From contig NZ_JAESVB010000001.1 in the NCBI RefSeq assembly GCF_020618775.1, forward strand, positions 620,001 to 684,000: a stretch of 64,000 bases of DNA. The letters are read 5' to 3'. This DNA comes from Acidisoma silvae (lineage in GTDB: Bacteria > Pseudomonadota > Alphaproteobacteria > Acetobacterales > Acetobacteraceae). Within the stretch, counting starts at the first letter, position 1. Every line of letters begins with the position of its first letter. Both the position numbers and the translations under genes were made by a program. A model generated the notes under the pieces. It was not told where the DNA came from and made no database searches. It saw only the letters and a program-made list of their open reading frames with translations. Shown piece after piece: positions 1 to 9,011 of the stretch.

Positions 1-114
1 CTTCGCCAAGGTGAGAGACAGATTGTTGATGGCCTTGAACCCGTCGAAGGTTTTGTTGACGCCGTTGAGATACAGAAGGTCACCGCTGACGGCCCCGATG
101 GGTTGCGCGTTCAT
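1..114 (-). CDS. urtD: Urea ABC transporter ATP-binding protein UrtD (N-terminal fragment)
   Basis: Only the first 38 codons are inside the window; the gene runs off the left edge. The ATG overlaps the urtC stop by 4 bp (ATGA). The visible N-terminus includes LNGVNKTFDGFKAINNLSLT, the usual first beta strands of a branched-chain amino acid/urea type ABC ATPase, just before the Walker A, which is not reached. UrtD together with UrtE energises urea import through UrtB/UrtC. The identity rests mainly on position in the urtABCD order. Confidence 0.85.
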   Translation of the reverse strand, partial: MNAQPIGAVSGDLLYLNGVNKTFDGFKAINNLSLTLAK

Positions 115-1286
115 GCCGTTTTCTCCCCATCCTCGATATCCGCGCCGGCCTCGGCCAGATCAGCCGTCTGGCCGTCGATGGCGGCCAGACCCTGCTTCTC
201 ATGCGCGGTCGGCAGCGCCGCGTCATTCCCGGTCCGCCGGGCAAAGGTGCCGACAATGCCTTTCGGCAGGAACAGCGTGACGAGAATGAAAAGGCCACCC
301 AGCGCATAAAGCCAGGCGCCGGGCAGCGCGCCGGTCAGGATCGTCTTGCCGAAATTCACCAGCACCGCGCCGAGGATGGCGCCCGACAGCGTGCCGCGCC
401 CACCGACCGCGACCCAGATCACCGCTTCGATGGAATTCGCAGGCGCGAATTCGCCGGGATTGATGATACCGACCTGCGGCACGTACAGCGCGCCGCCGAT
501 GCCGGCGATGACGGCGGACAGAACCCAGACCACAAGCTTGTAGTATTCCGGCCGGTAGCCCAGGAAGCGCGTGCGGCTTTCGGCGTCGCGCACAGCCACC
601 AGAACCTGCCCGTAGCGGCTGCCCACCAGCCAGCGGGCGAAGAGGAAGGCACCGGCCGTGAAGATAGCCGAAATCACCATCAGCGCCGTCGTCGTGCTGC
701 TGCGGTTGAGCGGGAAACCGATAATGTCCTTGAAATCGGTCATGCCGTTATTGCCGCCGAAGCCCATGTCGTTGCGGAAAAAGGCCAGCAGCAGCGCATA
801 GGTCAGCGCCTGGGTGATGATGGAGAGATAGACGCCCGAGACGCGGCTGCGGAAGGCCAGGAAGCCGAAGACGGCGGCCAGGATCGCCGGCACCACCAGC
901 ACCATCACCATGGCGAAGGGGAACCAGGCGAAACCATGCCAATACCAGGGCAGCTGCTTCCAGCCGATGAAGATCATGAAATCCGGCAGATTGGCATTGG
1001 CATAAACGCCGCGCGCGCCGATCTCGCGCGTCAGATACATGCCCATGCAATAGCCGCCCAGCGCGAAGAAGGCGGCGTGGCCGAGCGTGAGAATGCCAGC
1101 AAAACCCCAGACCAGATCGACGGCAAGTGCCAGCAGGGCGTAGCAGAGATATTTGCCGGCAAGACCGACGACGAAATCCGAGACATGCAGCGCGCTGGTC
1201 GCGGGCGTCGCCAGATTGAGGATGGCAAGGATGATCGCGACGCCGATGATGATGACCGGCGTGAGGGTCAGGGAAAGGCGGGTCAT
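111..1286 (-). CDS. urtC: Urea ABC transporter permease UrtC
   Basis: A 391-residue inner-membrane permease of the branched-chain amino acid (LivM) family. It begins MTRLSLTLTPVIIIG and has many hydrophobic segments plus motifs shared with LivM proteins, such as GYCMGMYLTREIGARG and LAVRDAESRTRFLGY (approximately, in the cytoplasmic coupling region). The open frame extends further upstream, but the ATG at 1286 overlaps the urtB stop by 4 bp (ATGA), as expected in a coupled operon, and its N-terminus matches the family. With UrtB it forms the channel for high-affinity urea uptake. The polar tail after the last membrane helix is typical of UrtC. Confidence 0.95.
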   Translation of the reverse strand: MTRLSLTLTPVIIIGVAIILAILNLATPATSALHVSDFVVGLAGKYLCYALLALAVDLVWGFAGILTLGHAAFFALGGYCMGMYLTREIGARGVYANANLPDFMIFIGWKQLPWYWHGFAWFPFAMVMVLVVPAILAAVFGFLAFRSRVSGVYLSIITQALTYALLLAFFRNDMGFGGNNGMTDFKDIIGFPLNRSSTTTALMVISAIFTAGAFLFARWLVGSRYGQVLVAVRDAESRTRFLGYRPEYYKLVVWVLSAVIAGIGGALYVPQVGIINPGEFAPANSIEAVIWVAVGGRGTLSGAILGAVLVNFGKTILTGALPGAWLYALGGLFILVTLFLPKGIVGTFARRTGNDAALPTAHEKQGLAAIDGQTADLAEAGADIEDGEKTA

Positions 1287-2941
1287 GCTTCCACCGCCCG
1301 TCCCTTGACGGGGAACAACCCGCGCGGACGCCGCTGAATGAAGAGGATGATCAGGACCAGGACGACGATCTTGCCGAGCACCGCGCCCGCCACCGGCTCC
1401 AGCCCCTTGTTGACGATGCCCAAGGTCATCGCCGCCAGCACGGTACCCCATAGATTGCCGACGCCGCCGAAGACCACGACCATGAAACTGTCGATGATGT
1501 AGTTCTGGCCGAGGTTCGGAGAGACATTGTCGATCTGCGCGAGTGCCACGCCCGCGACGCCCGCAATGCCTGAGCCCAGACCGAAGGTCATGGCATCGAT
1601 CCAGGGCGTGCGGATGCCCATGCTGGCCGCCATGCGGCGGTTCTGCGTCACCGCGCGCATGCGTAAGCCCAGCGGCGTGAAGCGCATCACCGCCATCAGC
1701 CCGCCCACGACCGCGAAGGCGAAGATGATGATGCAAAGCCGGTTGAGCGTGATGGTGAGGCCACCCACCATGAAGAAGCCGCTCATCCAGTCGGGCGTGG
1801 CCACGTTCTGGTTCTCGGCGCCGAAGCCCGAGCGCACGGCCTGTTGCAGCACCAGGCTGAGACCCCAGGTCGCGAGCAGGGTTTCGAGCGGACGGCCGTA
1901 CAGGAAGCGGATCAGGCAGCGTTCGATCAGAATGCCGATGGCGCCAGCGACGACGAAGGCGACCGGGATGGCGACGATGACGCTGGCACCGAAGAGATCC
2001 GGTGCATAGGCGCGAAACACCTGCTGCACCACGAAGGTCGCATAGGCGCCGATCATCACCATCTCGCCATGGGCCATGTTGATGACGCCCATGACGCCGA
2101 AGGTGATGGCGAGCCCCGCGGCGGCCAGCAGCAGCACCGAGCCGAGGCTGAGGCCGTAATAGACGGTTTCGCCCCAGCTCCAGAGTTTCAGCGAAAAATC
2201 GATATGTTTGATGGCGGTGGCAGCCGCAACTGCCACCGCCTTCGGGGCGCCGGAGAGCGAGGCAAGCTCGTTCCGCGCCGCCATGTCGCCGCGCGCCGCG
2301 ATGGTGTTCACAGCCGCGAGCTGTGTCGTCTGGTCTGTCGTGGACAAGGCAAGCTGGTCTGCCGCTTCCGCCTGCAGCAACGTCGCCCGCACGCGCGGGT
2401 TCTGCTCATGGCTCAGCGCATGCTGCACGATGGGCAAGGTGCCTGCGGCGGGTGATTCGAAAATCGCCTCTGCCGCCTTCTGGCGCGTTGCGGTGTCGGG
2501 CGAGGAGAGGTCAAGCACGCCTTCGGCGGTCGCAATCGCACCGGTCACCATGTCGCTGGCGACGATGCGGCGCACCTGCATGAAGGGCGGTGCCGCAATG
2601 GTGGCGCCGGTGCGGGCATTCAGCCAAGCGCCGGAATCGGTGTCATGAATGAAAAGCCCGGCGTCGGGGCGCGGATATTTCCAGGTATAGAGTTCGTTAT
2701 TGCCGAGCGCATCCAGCACCTTGCGCGCTCGTGCGTCACCCGAGACGGAGATGGCGTTGACCGCGCTCACCACGTCATCAAGGTCGCGGCTGGTCAGGCC
2801 CAGATAAGGGTCGGCTGCCGTCTGGCTGGTCGGCGCGCTTTGGGCATGGGCGGGTGTGAGAGGAGCGAAAGCCAGCATAGCCAACAGAAGACCAAGGATG
2901 GCTGGCCGCCAACGGCAGGGTTGATGAAAGAACTGGCTCAA
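1283..2941 (-). CDS. urtB: Urea ABC transporter permease UrtB
   Basis: A 552-residue protein with a cleavable-looking signal peptide ending near AHAQ (about residue 34). A periplasmic extension of roughly 200 residues follows, then a LivH-type permease domain from about residue 255 (GLSLGSVLLLAAAGLAITFG, GVINMAHGEMVMIGAYATF). The long N-terminal extension is normal for proteobacterial UrtB and separates it from LivH, which is only about 300 residues. It overlaps urtC by 4 bp. It lies 214 bp downstream of urtA, with a palindromic repeat in the gap that may separate expression of the abundant binding protein from the permeases. Confidence 0.95.
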   Translation of the reverse strand: MSQFFHQPCRWRPAILGLLLAMLAFAPLTPAHAQSAPTSQTAADPYLGLTSRDLDDVVSAVNAISVSGDARARKVLDALGNNELYTWKYPRPDAGLFIHDTDSGAWLNARTGATIAAPPFMQVRRIVASDMVTGAIATAEGVLDLSSPDTATRQKAAEAIFESPAAGTLPIVQHALSHEQNPRVRATLLQAEAADQLALSTTDQTTQLAAVNTIAARGDMAARNELASLSGAPKAVAVAAATAIKHIDFSLKLWSWGETVYYGLSLGSVLLLAAAGLAITFGVMGVINMAHGEMVMIGAYATFVVQQVFRAYAPDLFGASVIVAIPVAFVVAGAIGILIERCLIRFLYGRPLETLLATWGLSLVLQQAVRSGFGAENQNVATPDWMSGFFMVGGLTITLNRLCIIIFAFAVVGGLMAVMRFTPLGLRMRAVTQNRRMAASMGIRTPWIDAMTFGLGSGIAGVAGVALAQIDNVSPNLGQNYIIDSFMVVVFGGVGNLWGTVLAAMTLGIVNKGLEPVAGAVLGKIVVLVLIILFIQRRPRGLFPVKGRAVEA

Positions 2942-3155: not shown

Positions 3156-4538
3156 TCAGCTCGCCTTGCTGCCCAGGCACTTGCCCTTCACGACGTCGTA
3201 GTTGCCGCAGCTCATGGGCGGCAGCCAGTCGCCGATCAGGTCCTTCGATTCCGGCAGATAGGGCGACCAGGGCTGGGCGACGACGGTGCCCGGCGTTTCG
3301 TAGACTATGTTGAACTGGCCGTTGCCCTGAATTTCGCCGATCAGCACCGGCTTGGTGATGTGGTGGTTCGGCATCATGGCGGAATAATCGCCCGAGAGGT
3401 TGCCGGCGGTGATGCCGGGCAGGGCGGCGATGACGGCGTCGGTATCGGTCGTATTGGCCTTCTCGACCGCCTTCACCCACATATTGAAGCCGATATAGGC
3501 CGCTTCCATCGGGTCGTTCGTGACGCGCTTGTCGTTCTTCGCGAATTTCTTGAAGTCGGCGATGAACTGCGTATTGGCCGGGCTGTCGACGCTTTCGAAA
3601 TAGTTCCAGGCGGCGAGGTGGCCGACCAGCGGCTTGGTGTCGATGCCGGCCAGTTCCTGCTCGCCGACCGAGAAGGCCACGACCGGAATATCGGTCGCCT
3701 TGATGCCCTGGTTGCCCAGTTCCTTGTAGAAGGGCACGTTGGCGTCACCATTGATGGTGGAGACAACGGCCGTCTTGGCGCCCGAGGAGCCGAAGCTTTT
3801 GATCTGGGAGACGATGCCCTGCCAGTCGGAATAGCCGAAGGGCGTGTAGTTGATCATGATGTCGGAGGCGGCGACGCCCTTGGACTTCAGATAGGCTTCC
3901 AGGATCTTGTTGGTCGTGCGCGGATAGACGTAATCGGTGCCGGCCAGAACCCAACGCTTCACATGCATCGTGTCCATCAGATAGTCGACGGCCGGAATGG
4001 CCTGCTGGTTCGGGGCAGCGCCGGTGTAGAAGATATTGCGGCTGCATTCCTGGCCCTCATACTGGACCGGGTAGAACAGGATGCCGTTCAGCTGCTCGAA
4101 GACCGGCAGCACGGACTTGCGGGAAACCGAGGTCCAGCAGCCGAAGACGGCGGCGCATTTGTCGACGGACAGAAGCTGCTTCGCCTTTTCGGCAAACAGC
4201 GGCCAGTTGGAGGCAGGGTCGACGACGACGGCTTCCAGCTTCTGGCCCAGCAGGCCGCCATTGGCATTCTGCTGGTCGATCAGCATCAGCATCACTTCCT
4301 TCAGCGGGGTTTCGCTGATGGCCATGGTGCCGGACAGGGAGTGCATGATGCCGACTTTGATGGTGCCGGCGGCCTGGGCGCGGGCCGGGCGGGTGGTCGC
4401 GACCGTGCCGACGGCGGCGGTGCCGATGGTGGCGGCGGCAGCGGCGGCAAGGCCCAGGCCGCCCAGCGAACGGCGGCCCATCTCGATTTGCGGGGCGGCG
4501 TCGGTTTCCGGCAGCGCCGGCTTGATTTCGTCCGTCAT
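3156..4538 (-). CDS. urtA: Urea ABC transporter substrate-binding protein UrtA
   Basis: A 460-residue periplasmic urea-binding protein. The N-terminus carries a Tat-like signal (GRRSLGGLGLAAAAA followed by an Ala-rich region ending ARAQ near residue 57). The mature part has the family sequence TIKVGIMHSLSGTMAISETP and the conserved VFGCWTSVSRKSVLPVFEQ. The length fits UrtA after signal removal. The ATG at 4538 is preferred because GAGAGG lies about 12 bases upstream; an in-frame ATG at 4574 would add 12 residues. It is the first gene of the minus-strand urt operon and faces the NCS1-fused kinase across a 200-bp gap. Confidence 0.95.
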   Translation of the reverse strand: MTDEIKPALPETDAAPQIEMGRRSLGGLGLAAAAAATIGTAAVGTVATTRPARAQAAGTIKVGIMHSLSGTMAISETPLKEVMLMLIDQQNANGGLLGQKLEAVVVDPASNWPLFAEKAKQLLSVDKCAAVFGCWTSVSRKSVLPVFEQLNGILFYPVQYEGQECSRNIFYTGAAPNQQAIPAVDYLMDTMHVKRWVLAGTDYVYPRTTNKILEAYLKSKGVAASDIMINYTPFGYSDWQGIVSQIKSFGSSGAKTAVVSTINGDANVPFYKELGNQGIKATDIPVVAFSVGEQELAGIDTKPLVGHLAAWNYFESVDSPANTQFIADFKKFAKNDKRVTNDPMEAAYIGFNMWVKAVEKANTTDTDAVIAALPGITAGNLSGDYSAMMPNHHITKPVLIGEIQGNGQFNIVYETPGTVVAQPWSPYLPESKDLIGDWLPPMSCGNYDVVKGKCLGSKAS

Positions 4539-4625
4539 CGTCTCGGTTCCTCTCTCGTTGTCAGAAAATTCCATGTCGGCAAACGCGACCTGGGGCGGAG
4601 AGTGACGTTGACTGGTCGTCCGGGA

Positions 4626-4645
4626 CCATACGCAAAAGCGCGTAT
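4626..4645. promoter_or_regulatory. Perfect inverted repeat between urtA and the kinase gene (candidate operator)
   Basis: CATACGC and GCGTATG are perfect 7-bp arms separated by 6 bases (AAAAGC). The site lies in the 200-bp divergent region, about 90 bp from each start codon. There is no T-run and both neighbours are transcribed away from it, so it is not a terminator. Paired heptamers in inverted orientation are the kind of site that NarL/LuxR-type response regulators bind, and such a regulator is encoded at 8118-9011. The link is inferred. Confidence 0.45.
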
Positions 4646-4738
4646 GACCGGGCGCGCGGTCTATGCTTTGATAGGAATCGGTTTATTCGTCATGGCCGGG
4701 CGGCCCCGCCTGAGAGAGACCTACATTAAGGCGGCGCG

Positions 4739-7700
4739 GTGAGGATAACGACACCTTCAGGCTCCGCGCGGCTGGCGCGGCAGCGCATCACCCGCACCAG
4801 GCGGGAATATAACCGCTGGGTCGCCAACCAGACGCTGGAGGATTACGCGCTCCGCTTCACGGCCAAAAGCGCGCGCAAATGGACGGCGCTGCGGGTGGCC
4901 AATACCGCCCTGGGTGCCGTCTCCTTCCTCGCGCTGGAAGCGATCGGCGGCACCATCACGCTGGCCTACGGCTTCCAGAATTCGATTCTGGCCATCGCCT
5001 TCGTCAGCGTCATGATCTTTCTGATCAGCATTCCCATCTGCGCCCATGCCGCGCGGGCGGGCGTGGATGTCGATCTGCTGACGCGCGGTGCGGGTTTCGG
5101 CTATATCGGCTCCACCATCACCTCGCTGATTTATGCGAGTTTCACCTTCATCTTTTTCGGCATCGAGGCCGTGATTCTCGCCTCCATGCTGCAAAGCTTT
5201 TTCGGCGTGCCGGAATGGCTGGGCTATATTCTGTGCGCCATCGTCATCCTGCCGCTGGTCACCCACGGCATCACCTTCATCAGCCGCTTCCAGCTCTGGA
5301 CCCAGCCGATCTGGTTCGTCCTCAACCTGGTGCCGATCATCGCGGTGCTGGTCACGCATCCGGACTGGCTTCCGGGCTGGACCCGGTTTGCGGGCCAGCA
5401 TGGCCGCGCGGCCGGGTTCGATCTGGCAGGCTTCGGCGCCGCCGCCTCCATCCTTTTTGCCATGATCACGCAAACCGCCGAGCAGGTGGATTTCATCCGC
5501 TTCCTGCCACCGCAATCGGCCATCGGCGCGCGGCGCTGGTGGACGGCGCTGATCCTCGGCGGTCCAGGCTGGATCGCGATCGACGTCATCAAGCTGCTGG
5601 CGGGCTCCCTGCTGGCCTATGTCGCCCTGCAAAGCGGAATGCTGCCGGATGATGCCGTGCAGCCGGCGCAGATGTACCGGCTGGCTTTCCAGACCATCGC
5701 ATCGTCGCCCGTCGCCATCATGCTGACCTGCGCTCTGGTCGTGGTCTCTCAGGTCAAGATCAACATCACCAATGCCTATGCCGGGTCGCTCGCCTGGTCG
5801 AATTTCTTTTCGCGCCTGACGCACAGCCATCCCGGCCGCGTCATCTGGCTGATCTTCAATATCGTCATTGCCCTGCTGCTGATGGAAACCGGGGTAACCA
5901 AGACCATCCAGCACACGCTGGTCGTCTATTCCAATGTCGCCGCCGCCTGGATGGGCGCGCTGGTCGCCGATCTGGTGGTCAACAAGCGGCTCGGCCTCAG
6001 TCCGAAGGGCATCGAGTTCAAGCGCGCGCATCTCTTCGACATCAATCCGGTCGGTGTCGGCGCCATGCTGCTGGCTGTCATCGTCTCGCTCTCGGCCTAT
6101 GCCGGGCTGCTGGGGCGGGGGCCGGCAGCACTCTCCACCTTCATCGCCTTCGGCGGGGCCTTTCTTGTGGCCCCGCTGATCGCCTGGGGCACCGGCGGCC
6201 GCACCTATCTGGCCCGGCGGGGCCGCGCCGCCTGGGCCTCGCGCGGCACCATCGCCTGCTCCGTCTGCGAACATGCTTTCGAGCCCGAGGACATGGCCTA
6301 TTGCCCGGTCTATACCGGCCCCATTTGCTCGCTCTGCTGTTCGCTCGACGCCCGCTGCCATGACGCCTGCAAACCGCATGGGCGGGTGGCCGAGCAGGTC
6401 GCGAAAAGCTTCCGCTTCGTCATGCCCGCGCCCGTCATCGCGCTCATGCGCGTGCGGGTGGCGCGTTTCATCGGCGTGCTGTTCCTGTTCGCGGCCGGCA
6501 CCGGCCTGCTGCTGATCGCCATCGACGCGCAGACCGTGAGTAGTGGCCCGATCAGCAAGGCTGCCGCCAATGCCGCCTTCTGGAAGACCTTCCTGGTCAT
6601 GCTCGTCATTGGCGGCGTCGTCTCCTGGCTGGCCGTGCTGGCGCAAGAAAGCCGGCGCGCGGCGGAGGAAGAGACGCGCCGCCAGACCGTGCTGCTGCTG
6701 GACGAAATCAGCGCCCATCGCCAGACGGATGCCGAATTGCAGCGGGCCAAGGAAACGGCCGAGGCCGCCTCCCGCGCCAAAAGCCGCTATGTCGTCGGCA
6801 TCAGCCACGAACTCCGCAGTCCGCTGAACGCCATCCTTGGCTATGCCCAGCTCTTGGAGAAGGACGCCGATATCCCAGCCCGCAAGCGGGAGGGTCTGCG
6901 CATCATCCGCCGCTCGGGCGAGCATCTGACAGCGCTGATCGGCGGCCTGCTCGACATTTCCAAAATCGAGGCCGGGCATATCGAGCTGTATCGGGATGAA
7001 ATCCGCCTGCCGGAATTTCTCGATCATCTGGTGCAGATGATGCGCTTGCAGGCCGAGACCAAAGGCATCGCGCTGCATTACCGGGCCGATCCGCTGCCGC
7101 GCCTGGTCTATGCGGATGAGCATCGGCTGCGGCAGGTGCTCATCAATCTTCTGTCGAACGCCATCAAGTTCACGACCGAAGGCAGCGTCACCTTCACGGT
7201 GCGCTACCGCAGCCAGGTCGCGGAATTCGATGTCACGGATACCGGGCGCGGCATCGCGGAAGCCGACCTCATCCGCATTTTCGAGCCTTTTCAGCGTGCA
7301 GGTGATCAGTCGGTGCCTGGCACCGGCCTGGGGCTGACCATCGTGCGCCTACTGACGGAGGTGATGGGCGGAGAGGTGACGGCCACCAGCACGCTGGGCG
7401 AGGGCAGCCGCTTCCGCCTGCGCCTGCTGCTGTCGGAAGCGGCCGAGACGCTGAAGCCCAGCCCGCCGGCGCTGGAAATCACCGGCTATCGCGGCCGACG
7501 CCTGACGGTGCTGGTGGCCGATGACGACGCGACCCAGCGGTCACTGATGCTCGATCTGCTGACGCCTTTGGGCTTTACCGTTGTCGGGGCGGCCGGCGGC
7601 GCCGAATGCCTGGCGCTGACCGAGCAATGGCGCCCCGACCTGTTCCTGCTCGACCTCTCGATGCCCGATGCCACGGGCTGGGATCTGGCCCAGCGCCTGC

Positions 7701-8116
7701 GGGAGGAGGTGCGGGCGAAGGCGCCCATCGTCATCGTCTCGGCCAATGCCCGCGAATTGGAAGTCGCCCCGCGCGAGGGGCAATTTCATGATGATGTCAT
7801 GGCCAAGCCTGTGCGGCTGGATCTGCTGCTGGAGAGCATCGGCCGGCTTCTGGCGCTGGACTGGACAAGGCTGGAGACCGAGGCGCTGCCTGCCACGGCG
7901 GACGAGGGGGCCGACCTGACCGCGCAGCAATTGGGCGAACTCCGCGAACTCGCCGCCATCGGCTATGTGCGCGGCATCCGCCAGCGGCTGGACGCCCTGG
8001 TGGAGGAGCAGCCGGCGCTGGACCCGACGCTGACGCCCTTGCGCGCGCTGATCGCCGATTACCGGCTGGATGCTTTTATCGCGGCCCTGGATGAGATGGC
8101 CGGGCGGAGACCGTGA
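4739..8116 (+). CDS. NCS1 transporter-fused hybrid histidine kinase
   Basis: A 1125-residue membrane protein. Residues about 30-490 form a transporter domain with around twelve hydrophobic segments resembling NCS1 permeases for nucleobases, allantoin and hydantoin (for example WTALRVANTALGAVSFLALE). Residues 507-544 hold eight cysteines (507, 510, 522, 530, 533, 534, 540, 544). Two more membrane helices (about 575-597 and 614-636) and a short coiled coil follow. The HisKA domain has its phospho-His at 690 (GISHELRSPLNAIL). The ATPase has NLLSNAIKF, DTGRGI and GTGLGLTI. A receiver spans about 921-1040 (VADDD; acceptor Asp 972; Lys 1023), with a helical C-terminal tail. The start is GTG. It probably senses substrate through the transporter fold; urea or a related nitrogen compound is inferred from the divergent urtA. 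Confidence 0.9.
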   Translation: MRITTPSGSARLARQRITRTRREYNRWVANQTLEDYALRFTAKSARKWTALRVANTALGAVSFLALEAIGGTITLAYGFQNSILAIAFVSVMIFLISIPICAHAARAGVDVDLLTRGAGFGYIGSTITSLIYASFTFIFFGIEAVILASMLQSFFGVPEWLGYILCAIVILPLVTHGITFISRFQLWTQPIWFVLNLVPIIAVLVTHPDWLPGWTRFAGQHGRAAGFDLAGFGAAASILFAMITQTAEQVDFIRFLPPQSAIGARRWWTALILGGPGWIAIDVIKLLAGSLLAYVALQSGMLPDDAVQPAQMYRLAFQTIASSPVAIMLTCALVVVSQVKINITNAYAGSLAWSNFFSRLTHSHPGRVIWLIFNIVIALLLMETGVTKTIQHTLVVYSNVAAAWMGALVADLVVNKRLGLSPKGIEFKRAHLFDINPVGVGAMLLAVIVSLSAYAGLLGRGPAALSTFIAFGGAFLVAPLIAWGTGGRTYLARRGRAAWASRGTIACSVCEHAFEPEDMAYCPVYTGPICSLCCSLDARCHDACKPHGRVAEQVAKSFRFVMPAPVIALMRVRVARFIGVLFLFAAGTGLLLIAIDAQTVSSGPISKAAANAAFWKTFLVMLVIGGVVSWLAVLAQESRRAAEEETRRQTVLLLDEISAHRQTDAELQRAKETAEAASRAKSRYVVGISHELRSPLNAILGYAQLLEKDADIPARKREGLRIIRRSGEHLTALIGGLLDISKIEAGHIELYRDEIRLPEFLDHLVQMMRLQAETKGIALHYRADPLPRLVYADEHRLRQVLINLLSNAIKFTTEGSVTFTVRYRSQVAEFDVTDTGRGIAEADLIRIFEPFQRAGDQSVPGTGLGLTIVRLLTEVMGGEVTATSTLGEGSRFRLRLLLSEAAETLKPSPPALEITGYRGRRLTVLVADDDATQRSLMLDLLTPLGFTVVGAAGGAECLALTEQWRPDLFLLDLSMPDATGWDLAQRLREEVRAKAPIVIVSANARELEVAPREGQFHDDVMAKPVRLDLLLESIGRLLALDWTRLETEALPATADEGADLTAQQLGELRELAAIGYVRGIRQRLDALVEEQPALDPTLTPLRALIADYRLDAFIAALDEMAGRRP

Positions 8117-8117
8117 C

Positions 8118-9011
8118 GTGAAACGCCGGGACATCATTCTGGTCGTGGACGACACGCCCGGCACGCTCGGCGTGCTGAACGAGGTGCTGGAGGATGCCGG
8201 CTATACGGTGCTGATGGCGCAATCGGCGGCGGCCGCCATGATCGTGCTGGAGCGCGTGCTGCCGGATGTTATCCTGATCGACGCCGTCATGCCCGGCATG
8301 GACGGGTTCGAGGCCTGCCGGCGGATGAAGCGCAATCCGGCGCTGGCCTCGGTCCCCATCATTTTCATGACGGGGCTGACGGAAAGCGAGGATGTGGTGC
8401 GCGGGCTTGAGGCCGGTGGTGTCGATTACGTCACCAAGCCATTGCAACTGGCCGAGGTCATCGCCCGCATTCGCGTCCATCTCACCGGGGCGCGGCGCAC
8501 GCAAAGCGCCCAGGCGGCGCTGGACACGGCAGGACGCTTTCTTCTGGCAACCGATACCGAAGGGGAACTGCAATGGGCGACGCCCCAGGCGGCCGGCCTG
8601 CTGGCGCGGCTGGTGCCGGCCCAGGACGGCGCCCCGGCCTGCCCCTGGGTTGCTGATTGGCTGGTGGAGTCGCCCGAGCAGGCGCCCGGGCAGGTGGCTA
8701 TCGCGCTGGGCGAGGCGCCGGTTCTGCAATTCGTCTATGTCGGCCGCATGGCGCCCGATGAGGTGATGTTCCGCATCCAGGAAACGCGGACCTCGACCGA
8801 GGAAGCGCAGCTGCGGGAACGTCTGGGCCTGACGGCGCGGGAGGCCGAGGTGCTGCTCTGGGTCGGTCACGGCAAGGGCACGCGCGATATTGCGGATATC
8901 CTGGGCATGAGCCCGCGCACGGTGCAGAAACATCTGGAGCAGATCTACGCCAAGCTGGGGGTGGAGAACCGCGCGGCCGCGGCGGCCATCGCCATCCGCA
9001 CGGTGGGGTGA
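8118..9011 (+). CDS. Response regulator, receiver plus LuxR-type HTH
   Basis: A 297-residue protein with a GTG start one base after the kinase stop, so the two are translationally linked. Residues about 5-125 form a receiver (ILVVDD, acceptor Asp 55 in LIDAVMPG, FMTGLTE, Lys in YVTKPL). A middle segment of about 100 residues resembles a degenerate PAS-like sensor region. A LuxR/NarL-type HTH lies near the C-terminus (LTAREAEVLLWVGHGKGTRDIADILG, here in two overlapping pieces, then SPRTVQKHLEQIYAKLGV). It is the likely DNA-binding partner of the upstream kinase. Control of urt genes is inferred from position only. An in-frame start at 8070 would overlap the kinase and is less likely. Confidence 0.9.
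   Translation: MKRRDIILVVDDTPGTLGVLNEVLEDAGYTVLMAQSAAAAMIVLERVLPDVILIDAVMPGMDGFEACRRMKRNPALASVPIIFMTGLTESEDVVRGLEAGGVDYVTKPLQLAEVIARIRVHLTGARRTQSAQAALDTAGRFLLATDTEGELQWATPQAAGLLARLVPAQDGAPACPWVADWLVESPEQAPGQVAIALGEAPVLQFVYVGRMAPDEVMFRIQETRTSTEEAQLRERLGLTAREAEVLLWVGHGKGTRDIADILGMSPRTVQKHLEQIYAKLGVENRAAAAAIAIRTVG

Follow-up and report, generated by a model that had tools for sequence, protein, structure and literature searches.

A 64,000-nucleotide stretch of the Acidisoma silvae genome (contig NZ_JAESVB010000001.1, positions 620,001 to 684,000; hereafter the window) carries, at 4739..8116 on the plus strand, a gene with a GTG start whose 1125-residue product joins a permease, an eight-cysteine module and a hybrid histidine kinase, as judged from the open reading frame (ORF), Pfam matches and conservation in homologues. 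The N-terminal part, from about residue 20 to 495 (4796..6223, +), was assigned by model and profiles to an NCS1-like permease domain, which is presumed to sense, and perhaps to transport, urea or amides. It is followed by the eight-cysteine module (residues 507–544; 6257..6370, +), recognised from homologue conservation and the model and probably cytoplasmic, and by two extra predicted membrane helices before the kinase (about residues 573–635; 6455..6643, +; from the model, with membrane placement by eye). HisKA with His690 (residues 681–746; 6779..6976, +), HATPase_c (residues 793–898; 7115..7432, +) and a receiver domain with Asp972 (residues 924–1034; 7508..7840, +) all passed the Pfam cut-off, as is expected of a hybrid histidine kinase, and His690 and Asp972 were kept in 80 out of 80 homologues. 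The closest match to the kinase in the genome scan was that of Acidisoma cellulosilyticum, with 96% identity.

The stop codon of the kinase gene ends at 8116 and a response regulator gene begins at 8118 (8118..9011, +), leaving a single base between them. Its product of 297 residues contains a receiver (Response_reg, residues 7–119) and a LuxR-type GerE helix-turn-helix (residues 238–292) by Pfam, and is thus a regulator of the LuxR/NarL type. Homologues covering at least 60% of its length were found in 79 of the 80 loci L001–L080 and in 45 of the 51 loci L122–L172, one of these being kinase-less. Divergent from the kinase lies urtA (3156..4574, −), encoding the binding protein of a urea ABC transporter; it scored 559.1 bits against TIGR03407 (cut-off 492.75), and its probable start is the ATG at 4538, ahead of which a purine-rich stretch was read by eye. 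This gene heads urtABCDE, with urease genes next. Within the window are urtB (1283..2941, −; ORF and match to annotated UrtB), urtC (111..1292, −; ORF and annotated match, start by eye) and the beginning of urtD (−), which starts at 115 and leaves the window at its left edge; urtE and the urease genes lie outside. The initial annotation had described the fusion of 1125 residues, the regulator one base downstream and the divergent urtA, and all three were borne out; it did not include the dyad, the amide-linked members of the family or the kinase-less relatives described below.

The family is widespread. In an even sample of 398 Pseudomonadota genomes, that of A. silvae included, the permease family was found in 52, about one in eight. 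From 57 matches outside A. silvae, 51 loci were taken as stretches of 11–17 kb, and 50 of these are kinase-fused. We assigned a locus to the urea class by urtA with at least 60% identity and/or ureC, and to the amide class by a second binding-protein type, FmdA and/or AmiE. Urea or amide genes were present near 49 of the 50 kinase-fused loci (urea 17, short-chain amide 32), and the sole exception, L171, is on a contig of 4.8 kb. The 80 closest homologues, from another collection, gave 45 urea-type and 33 amide-type loci (one of the latter also with ureC) and two with neither gene class, namely L078 and L040, the latter on a contig that starts within the gene. The linkage of the kinase to nitrogen uptake genes, noticed before at this locus, is therefore conserved across genomes, with 49 of 50 and 78 of 80 loci. 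Annotated plasmid records agree on the urea/amide context; in Thioclava, the urt genes come after the regulator and do not face the kinase.

The context has changed repeatedly within the family. In a tree of 59 sequences, including two without a kinase, the simplest account has the context label change seven times, and at least four of these changes are forced by well-supported branches; shuffled labels gave 18.4 changes. L177 and L179 form long branches in this tree, and the urea label of L179 comes from urtDE alone. Five genomes contain two kinase copies. Four of them (G158, G225, G246 and G379) hold one amide and one urea copy, and in the other (G091) both copies are amide-type.

Analysis of the urtA–kinase intergenic region revealed the sequence ATACGC-N6-GCGTAT, whose core dyad TACG-N8-CGTA (4629..4644, no strand assigned) is a predicted operator on the basis of motif counts. 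Of 46 non-redundant divergent intergenic regions, 37 have the exact dyad and six have it with one mismatch, while it is absent from those of L138, L139 and L147. When the same 46 regions were block-shuffled 15 times, the highest count reached by a 4-letter dyad was six, compared with 37. The dyad density was 2.77 per kb in the divergent regions (39 sites) versus 0.007 per kb over the remainder of these loci (six sites). Of 125 linked loci with a binding-protein gene, a set which includes near-duplicates, 110 (73/78, 29/39 and 8/8) have the dyad no more than 600 bp upstream of this gene. Where urtA and the kinase lie apart, an exact copy is located just upstream of urtA in six out of the seven loci listed (L146, L149, L152, L153, L155 and L173); in L149 the urtA gene itself contains another copy. 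In Sinorhizobium meliloti 1021, pSymB carries a kinase homologue and the dyad TACGTCATTCTACGTA upstream of urtA.

No dyad was found in 40 urtA upstream stretches (1 kb each) from kinase-less genomes. In kinase-positive genomes, urtA regions not beside the kinase contained an exact dyad in two of 20 cases; the one in L269 lies at a distance of about 10 kb from a kinase of the urea type, and the one in L267 looks like chance. The window contains one dyad versus 0.12 expected, and the A. silvae genome has it in eight places, compared with 169 for the reversed pattern. Within 400 bp upstream of other genes, the dyad was found before fmdA in 5 of 63 loci, amiE in 3 of 24, ureC in none of 27 and urtB in none of 30. 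The loci concerned are L131, L134, L136, L139 and L140 for fmdA, and L051, L054 and L175 for amiE. These sites suggest a regulon that may extend beyond the divergent operon. Sigma-54-like sites were present in two of the 46 intergenic regions, and a simple scan of 4500–4780 found no sigma-70 promoter.

The permease domain could not be named by sequence searches. Residues 1–680 of the kinase had zero Pfam matches at E values up to 1, and neither a sequence/profile search of the PDB nor NCBIfam gave a name for the domain. PF02133 matched none of 20 members of the permease family at E values up to 1; its two matches in the A. silvae genome are both other genes. We then relied on an AlphaFold2 model of residues 12–660 (33 rows; model residue n is protein residue n+11), which had a mean predicted local distance difference test score (pLDDT) of 76.3 and a predicted template modelling score (pTM) of 0.77. 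The top five Foldseek matches of this model were Mhp1 and CodB, both of NCS1, which places the fold in the NCS1 branch of the LeuT superfamily. VIA-align gave Z 33.3 for CodB (root-mean-square deviation 3.5, 396 residues aligned), Z 30.2, 28.0 and 26.6 for Mhp1, and Z 23.6 for the best family outside NCS1. When 59 family members were aligned by hhalign with NCS1 permeases from relatives' genomes, the probability was 96 over 420 columns, whereas the SSF set gave 0.6 over 30 columns. The SSF set aligned with the NCS1 set at 43 over 341 columns, and its profile is therefore functional. Rows of both sets were chosen by frame hydrophobicity; the second NCS1 set excludes L182 (wrong frame) and L195, and the SSF set has at least one member, L205, that is possibly in a wrong frame.

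Plant and fungal urea transporters belong to SLC5. Kinship with this family, and with DUR3 in it, was considered and rejected, as DUR3 appeared at Foldseek ranks 11, 27 and 49 and had Z 22.8 in VIA-align, no Pfam SSF match was found, the profile alignment failed (0.6), and NCS1 structures scored Z 26.6–33.3 versus 23.6. From model and profiles, we regard the domain as a remote NCS1 relative beyond the Pfam family, because its fold matches CodB and Mhp1 and hhalign gives 96, yet PF02133 fails. This agrees with the NCS1-like, non-SLC5 fold of the initial annotation, though the fold was missed by Pfam and by the PDB sequence search.

In Mhp1, Gln121 and Asn318 bind hydantoin and Trp117 stacks on its ring; replacement of Trp117 by Phe lowers uptake only moderately, and changes at Trp220 have little effect (available part of PMC4195764). 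We mapped these residues through one bridging NCS1 protein by chained hhalign alignments, with 59 family sequences. Asn318 corresponds to Asn345 and Gln121 to Glu143, each in 59 of 59, and Trp117 corresponds to residue 139, which is Phe in 48 sequences (F139 here) and Leu in 11. The region of Trp220 was unaligned by hhalign; counting by hand without gaps from the conserved Asp251 places it at residue 242, where 58 sequences have Leu, one has Met and none has Trp. Of the NCS1 substrate-site residues whose conservation had been called for, the Asn is thus kept, while Gln has become Glu and Trp117 has become Phe or Leu in this chained alignment. E143, Q245, E248, Q249, D251, K340, N342 and N345 are invariant (59/59) in urea and amide classes alike, as expected if the ligands have a carboxamide group in common. 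Residues 331, 405, 310 and 351 correlate with the urea/amide label; kinship was ignored here and they serve as leads only. The site residues would favour a small, non-aromatic ligand only weakly, because the Trp117-to-Phe and Trp220 changes affect uptake by Mhp1 so little, and the claim is carried by the neighbouring genes. These point to urea, as had been proposed, and add short-chain amides, while the allantoin, hydantoin and purine that had also been proposed are not favoured.

The invariant Lys340 (59/59) falls on Ser312 of Mhp1 in two chained alignments. We take Ser312 to be a sodium ligand (the paper searched on this point names no site residues), and if so, the permease domain may work without sodium.

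Relatives without a kinase were also found. A third homologue in the A. silvae genome, on contig C10, consists of the permease and the full cysteine module without a kinase, and is followed by an amidase gene, AmiE-type at 79%. On a plasmid of Acinetobacter johnsonii, a 535-residue kinase-less relative (38.5% identity), annotated as an allantoin permease, precedes ureE, ureF, ureG, a ureJ-like gene, ureD, ureA, ureB and ureC. L172 encodes a kinase-less protein with 29% identity and without the cysteines of the module. A second kinase copy of A. silvae, near a contig end (C16:77380-80674, L089), seems to be broken: the permease part, preceded by an unrelated start that resembles a binding protein, and the remainder are in different frames; a regulator gene comes after it. 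The kinases of L164 and L169 are shorter (885 and 894 residues), the match ending before the receiver, and they adjoin fmdA; no recognisable regulator or exact dyad was found nearby.

The cysteines of the module follow exactly the pattern C507-xx-C510-x11-C522-x7-C530-xx-C533-C534-x5-C540-x3-C544. None of the eight varies among 80 homologues, which are the best matches of a six-seed pattern search with one seed (HAFEPEDM) inside the module itself, while C101, C166 and C331 of the same protein vary. In a wider set of 143, retrieved by searching with the complete permease portion, 139 keep all eight; two of the exceptions are the Acinetobacter protein and the distant L172, and the remaining two are put down to our choice of frame or to a broken copy. 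The conservation foreseen for these cysteines was thus observed in both sets. Modelled on its own (pLDDT 71.4), the module showed short strands and one helix. Its fold matches were all non-significant (best E 1.1), with zinc domains of the RING, ADD, FYVE, PHD and LIM types prominent, and the best sequence match was the RING of CNOT4 (E 6.1, non-significant). The initial annotation had left zinc and an Fe-S cluster open for this module; these non-significant matches would favour zinc, only weakly, over Fe-S. In an NCS1 protein with 12 helices both termini face the cytoplasm, and zinc is therefore favoured over disulphides as well. The Acinetobacter relative has retained only the cysteines of the first CxxC and the two that match 530/533, which we read as what may be the first site of a cross-braced two-site module.

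A module profile was also run on 289 alphaproteobacterial genomes with a mobile signalling domain in mind. That idea was rejected: of the 22 places found, 20 are in frames longer than 1100 residues and two are the A. silvae copies on C16 and C10. The first pass scored up to 20 candidates per genome, and the long frames were taken as a group. We take the module to be part of the permease and not a kinase-specific relay, because it is complete in the kinase-less paralogue next to the amidase gene. The earlier idea of a signal-relaying cysteine element therefore found no support in the form proposed, given that full set and the four cysteines of the Acinetobacter relative.

Taken together, we consider it likely that the protein is a transporter-fused sensor kinase (transceptor) for urea and amides, which drives a dedicated operon through the LuxR-type regulator and the dyad. 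The NCS1-like domain would bind a small carboxamide, namely urea in A. silvae and urea or amides of the formamide/acetamide type across the family. The resulting conformational change would be relayed to the kinase by the C-terminal cytoplasmic part of the permease, that is, the probably zinc-binding cysteine module and the two membrane helices. The kinase would then phosphorylate the adjacent regulator, which in turn would bind the TACG-N8-CGTA dyad and activate the divergent uptake operon, urtABCDE in A. silvae. Of this account, the sequence data themselves establish the architecture, its conservation, the genomic linkage and the occurrence of the dyad together with the kinase.

Several observations weigh against this account. 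The class labels rest on neighbouring genes, and TIGR03407 passes both classes of binding protein; L179 was labelled urea by urtDE only, and a locus carrying SBP2, FmdA and UreC together was placed in the amide class. The mapping of the Mhp1 residues depends on a bridging protein and on an alignment with 17% identity. As for the dyad, it was discovered in loci of the same family in which it was later counted, with near-duplicates among the 125, and the kinase-less set, whose 40 members were hand-picked from a list, is the only separate contrast. No exact dyad was found in 15 of the 125 binding-protein loci, in eight urease loci without a binding-protein gene in reach (L150, L161, L162, L165–L168 and L170), in the receiver-less amide kinases L164 and L169, in the kinase-less relatives L090 and L177, or in L156, where kinase and urtA are apart. 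The linkage itself could in part be explained by a kinase responding to another signal, for example nitrogen status.

This last alternative, in which the kinase senses nitrogen status or pH (ammonium or glutamine, internal or external) and the permease is either vestigial or simply a transporter, draws on the fact that linkage alone cannot separate ligand from status sensing. A common signal would not need an amide and a urea copy side by side, as found in four of the five two-copy genomes; the permease site residues are invariant; and the dyad was found in only two of 20 unlinked urtA regions of kinase-positive genomes, so that control seems to be operon-specific. We therefore consider status sensing unlikely. 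More room is left for the permease being an active urea/amide symporter, with the kinase reporting flux and not occupancy, since kinase-less relatives adjoin amidase and urease genes and the permease core is fully conserved; Lys340 at the place of Ser312, presumably a sodium ligand, suggests that at least Na+ coupling may be lost, and we hold this explanation to be possible but doubtful. Least probable of all would be the cysteine module as primary sensor (Fe-S, redox or zinc), with the amide genes merely its regulon. The cysteines are invariant in the kinases and form a cysteine-rich joint between permease and kinase, but the module is complete in a kinase-less permease and retains four cysteines in that of Acinetobacter, and its fold matches, all non-significant, are mostly of the RING, ADD, FYVE, PHD and LIM zinc types.

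Permease–kinase fusions that control nutrient use have been described in the SLC5/STAC kinases CbrA, CrbS and RpuS (available parts of PMC9100948 and PMC13022988). The A. silvae kinase shares their plan of a permease fused to a histidine kinase and a two-component control of nutrient use, which supports the analogy with CbrA-type kinases drawn earlier. It is unlike them in its NCS1-like domain, its LuxR-type regulator and its link to nitrogen compounds, and it has the cysteine module and two helices where those have STAC; the Pfam scan gave no STAC match in the kinase, the presence of a STAC model in the library being unchecked. Since the SLC5 domain is lacking, we do not place the kinase with the SLC5/STAC kinases, although it may work like one. 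A transporter domain acting as sensor of a nitrogen compound is known from the Amt-fused sensor kinase of Kuenenia (available part of PMC5764959). The A. silvae kinase resembles it in having a transporter domain turned into such a sensor. The Amt domain of the Kuenenia protein, which we take to be Ks-Amt5, has a different fold from the NCS1-like domain. Mhp1 and CodB are the closest solved structures, with the equivalents of Asn318 and Gln121 in the invariant N345 and E143; the A. silvae protein differs from them in having no PF02133 match, Phe or Leu for Trp117, no Trp at the place of Trp220, a kinase and the cysteine module.

The genes linked to the kinase are those of urtABCDE and of the fmd/ami ABC operons. 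A second cluster of Bradyrhizobium japonicum, beside formamidase-family and AmiE genes, was argued in 2010 to move an amide; the kinase is not treated in the part of that paper available (PMC3098086). The 'UTS' cluster (UrtABC/AmiF) of Klebsiella pneumoniae CG307 is treated as urea uptake in a 2026 preprint, in whose main text, as available, 'histidine kinase' and 'two-component' occur zero times (PMC13060141). Among 526 plasmid records matching the permease part, 342 are from Klebsiella, and the kinase was verified on one of them, K. pneumoniae plasmid pGN4549-1 (L176, 62911–82473). It carries a urt-like cluster of the same make-up as UTS, with a formamidase and with the kinase divergent from the binding-protein gene (in a strain that may or may not be CG307). 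Unlike in the UTS account, its binding protein is nearer to the amide type (75% identity) than to UrtA of the window (39%). TIGR03407, the curated UrtA model of NCBIfam, passes urea-type and amide-type binding proteins alike, and 'urtA' labels therefore cannot separate the substrates. Among the papers listed in our literature search, which covered few subscription papers, none on an NCS1–kinase fusion or on a two-component regulator of urea/amide operons was found.

Whether these proteins make up a third group of transporter-fused kinases, based on a family of NCS1-like permeases for urea and short-chain amides that had not been modelled before, with a two-site zinc module, a shared operator and repeated re-use between urea and amides, and whether the forms without a kinase would be urea/amide permeases of the NCS1 type, in contrast to DUR3 of SLC5, is in our judgement evenly balanced. 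The locus provides a candidate for a dedicated sensor of urea and small amides, complete with its regulator, DNA site and target operon. With urea and amide versions side by side and the core of the site constant, the family would offer a system for the study of permease-to-kinase signalling. Judging from our analysis, amides may also be the substrates of some operons that bear the label 'urea transporter'.

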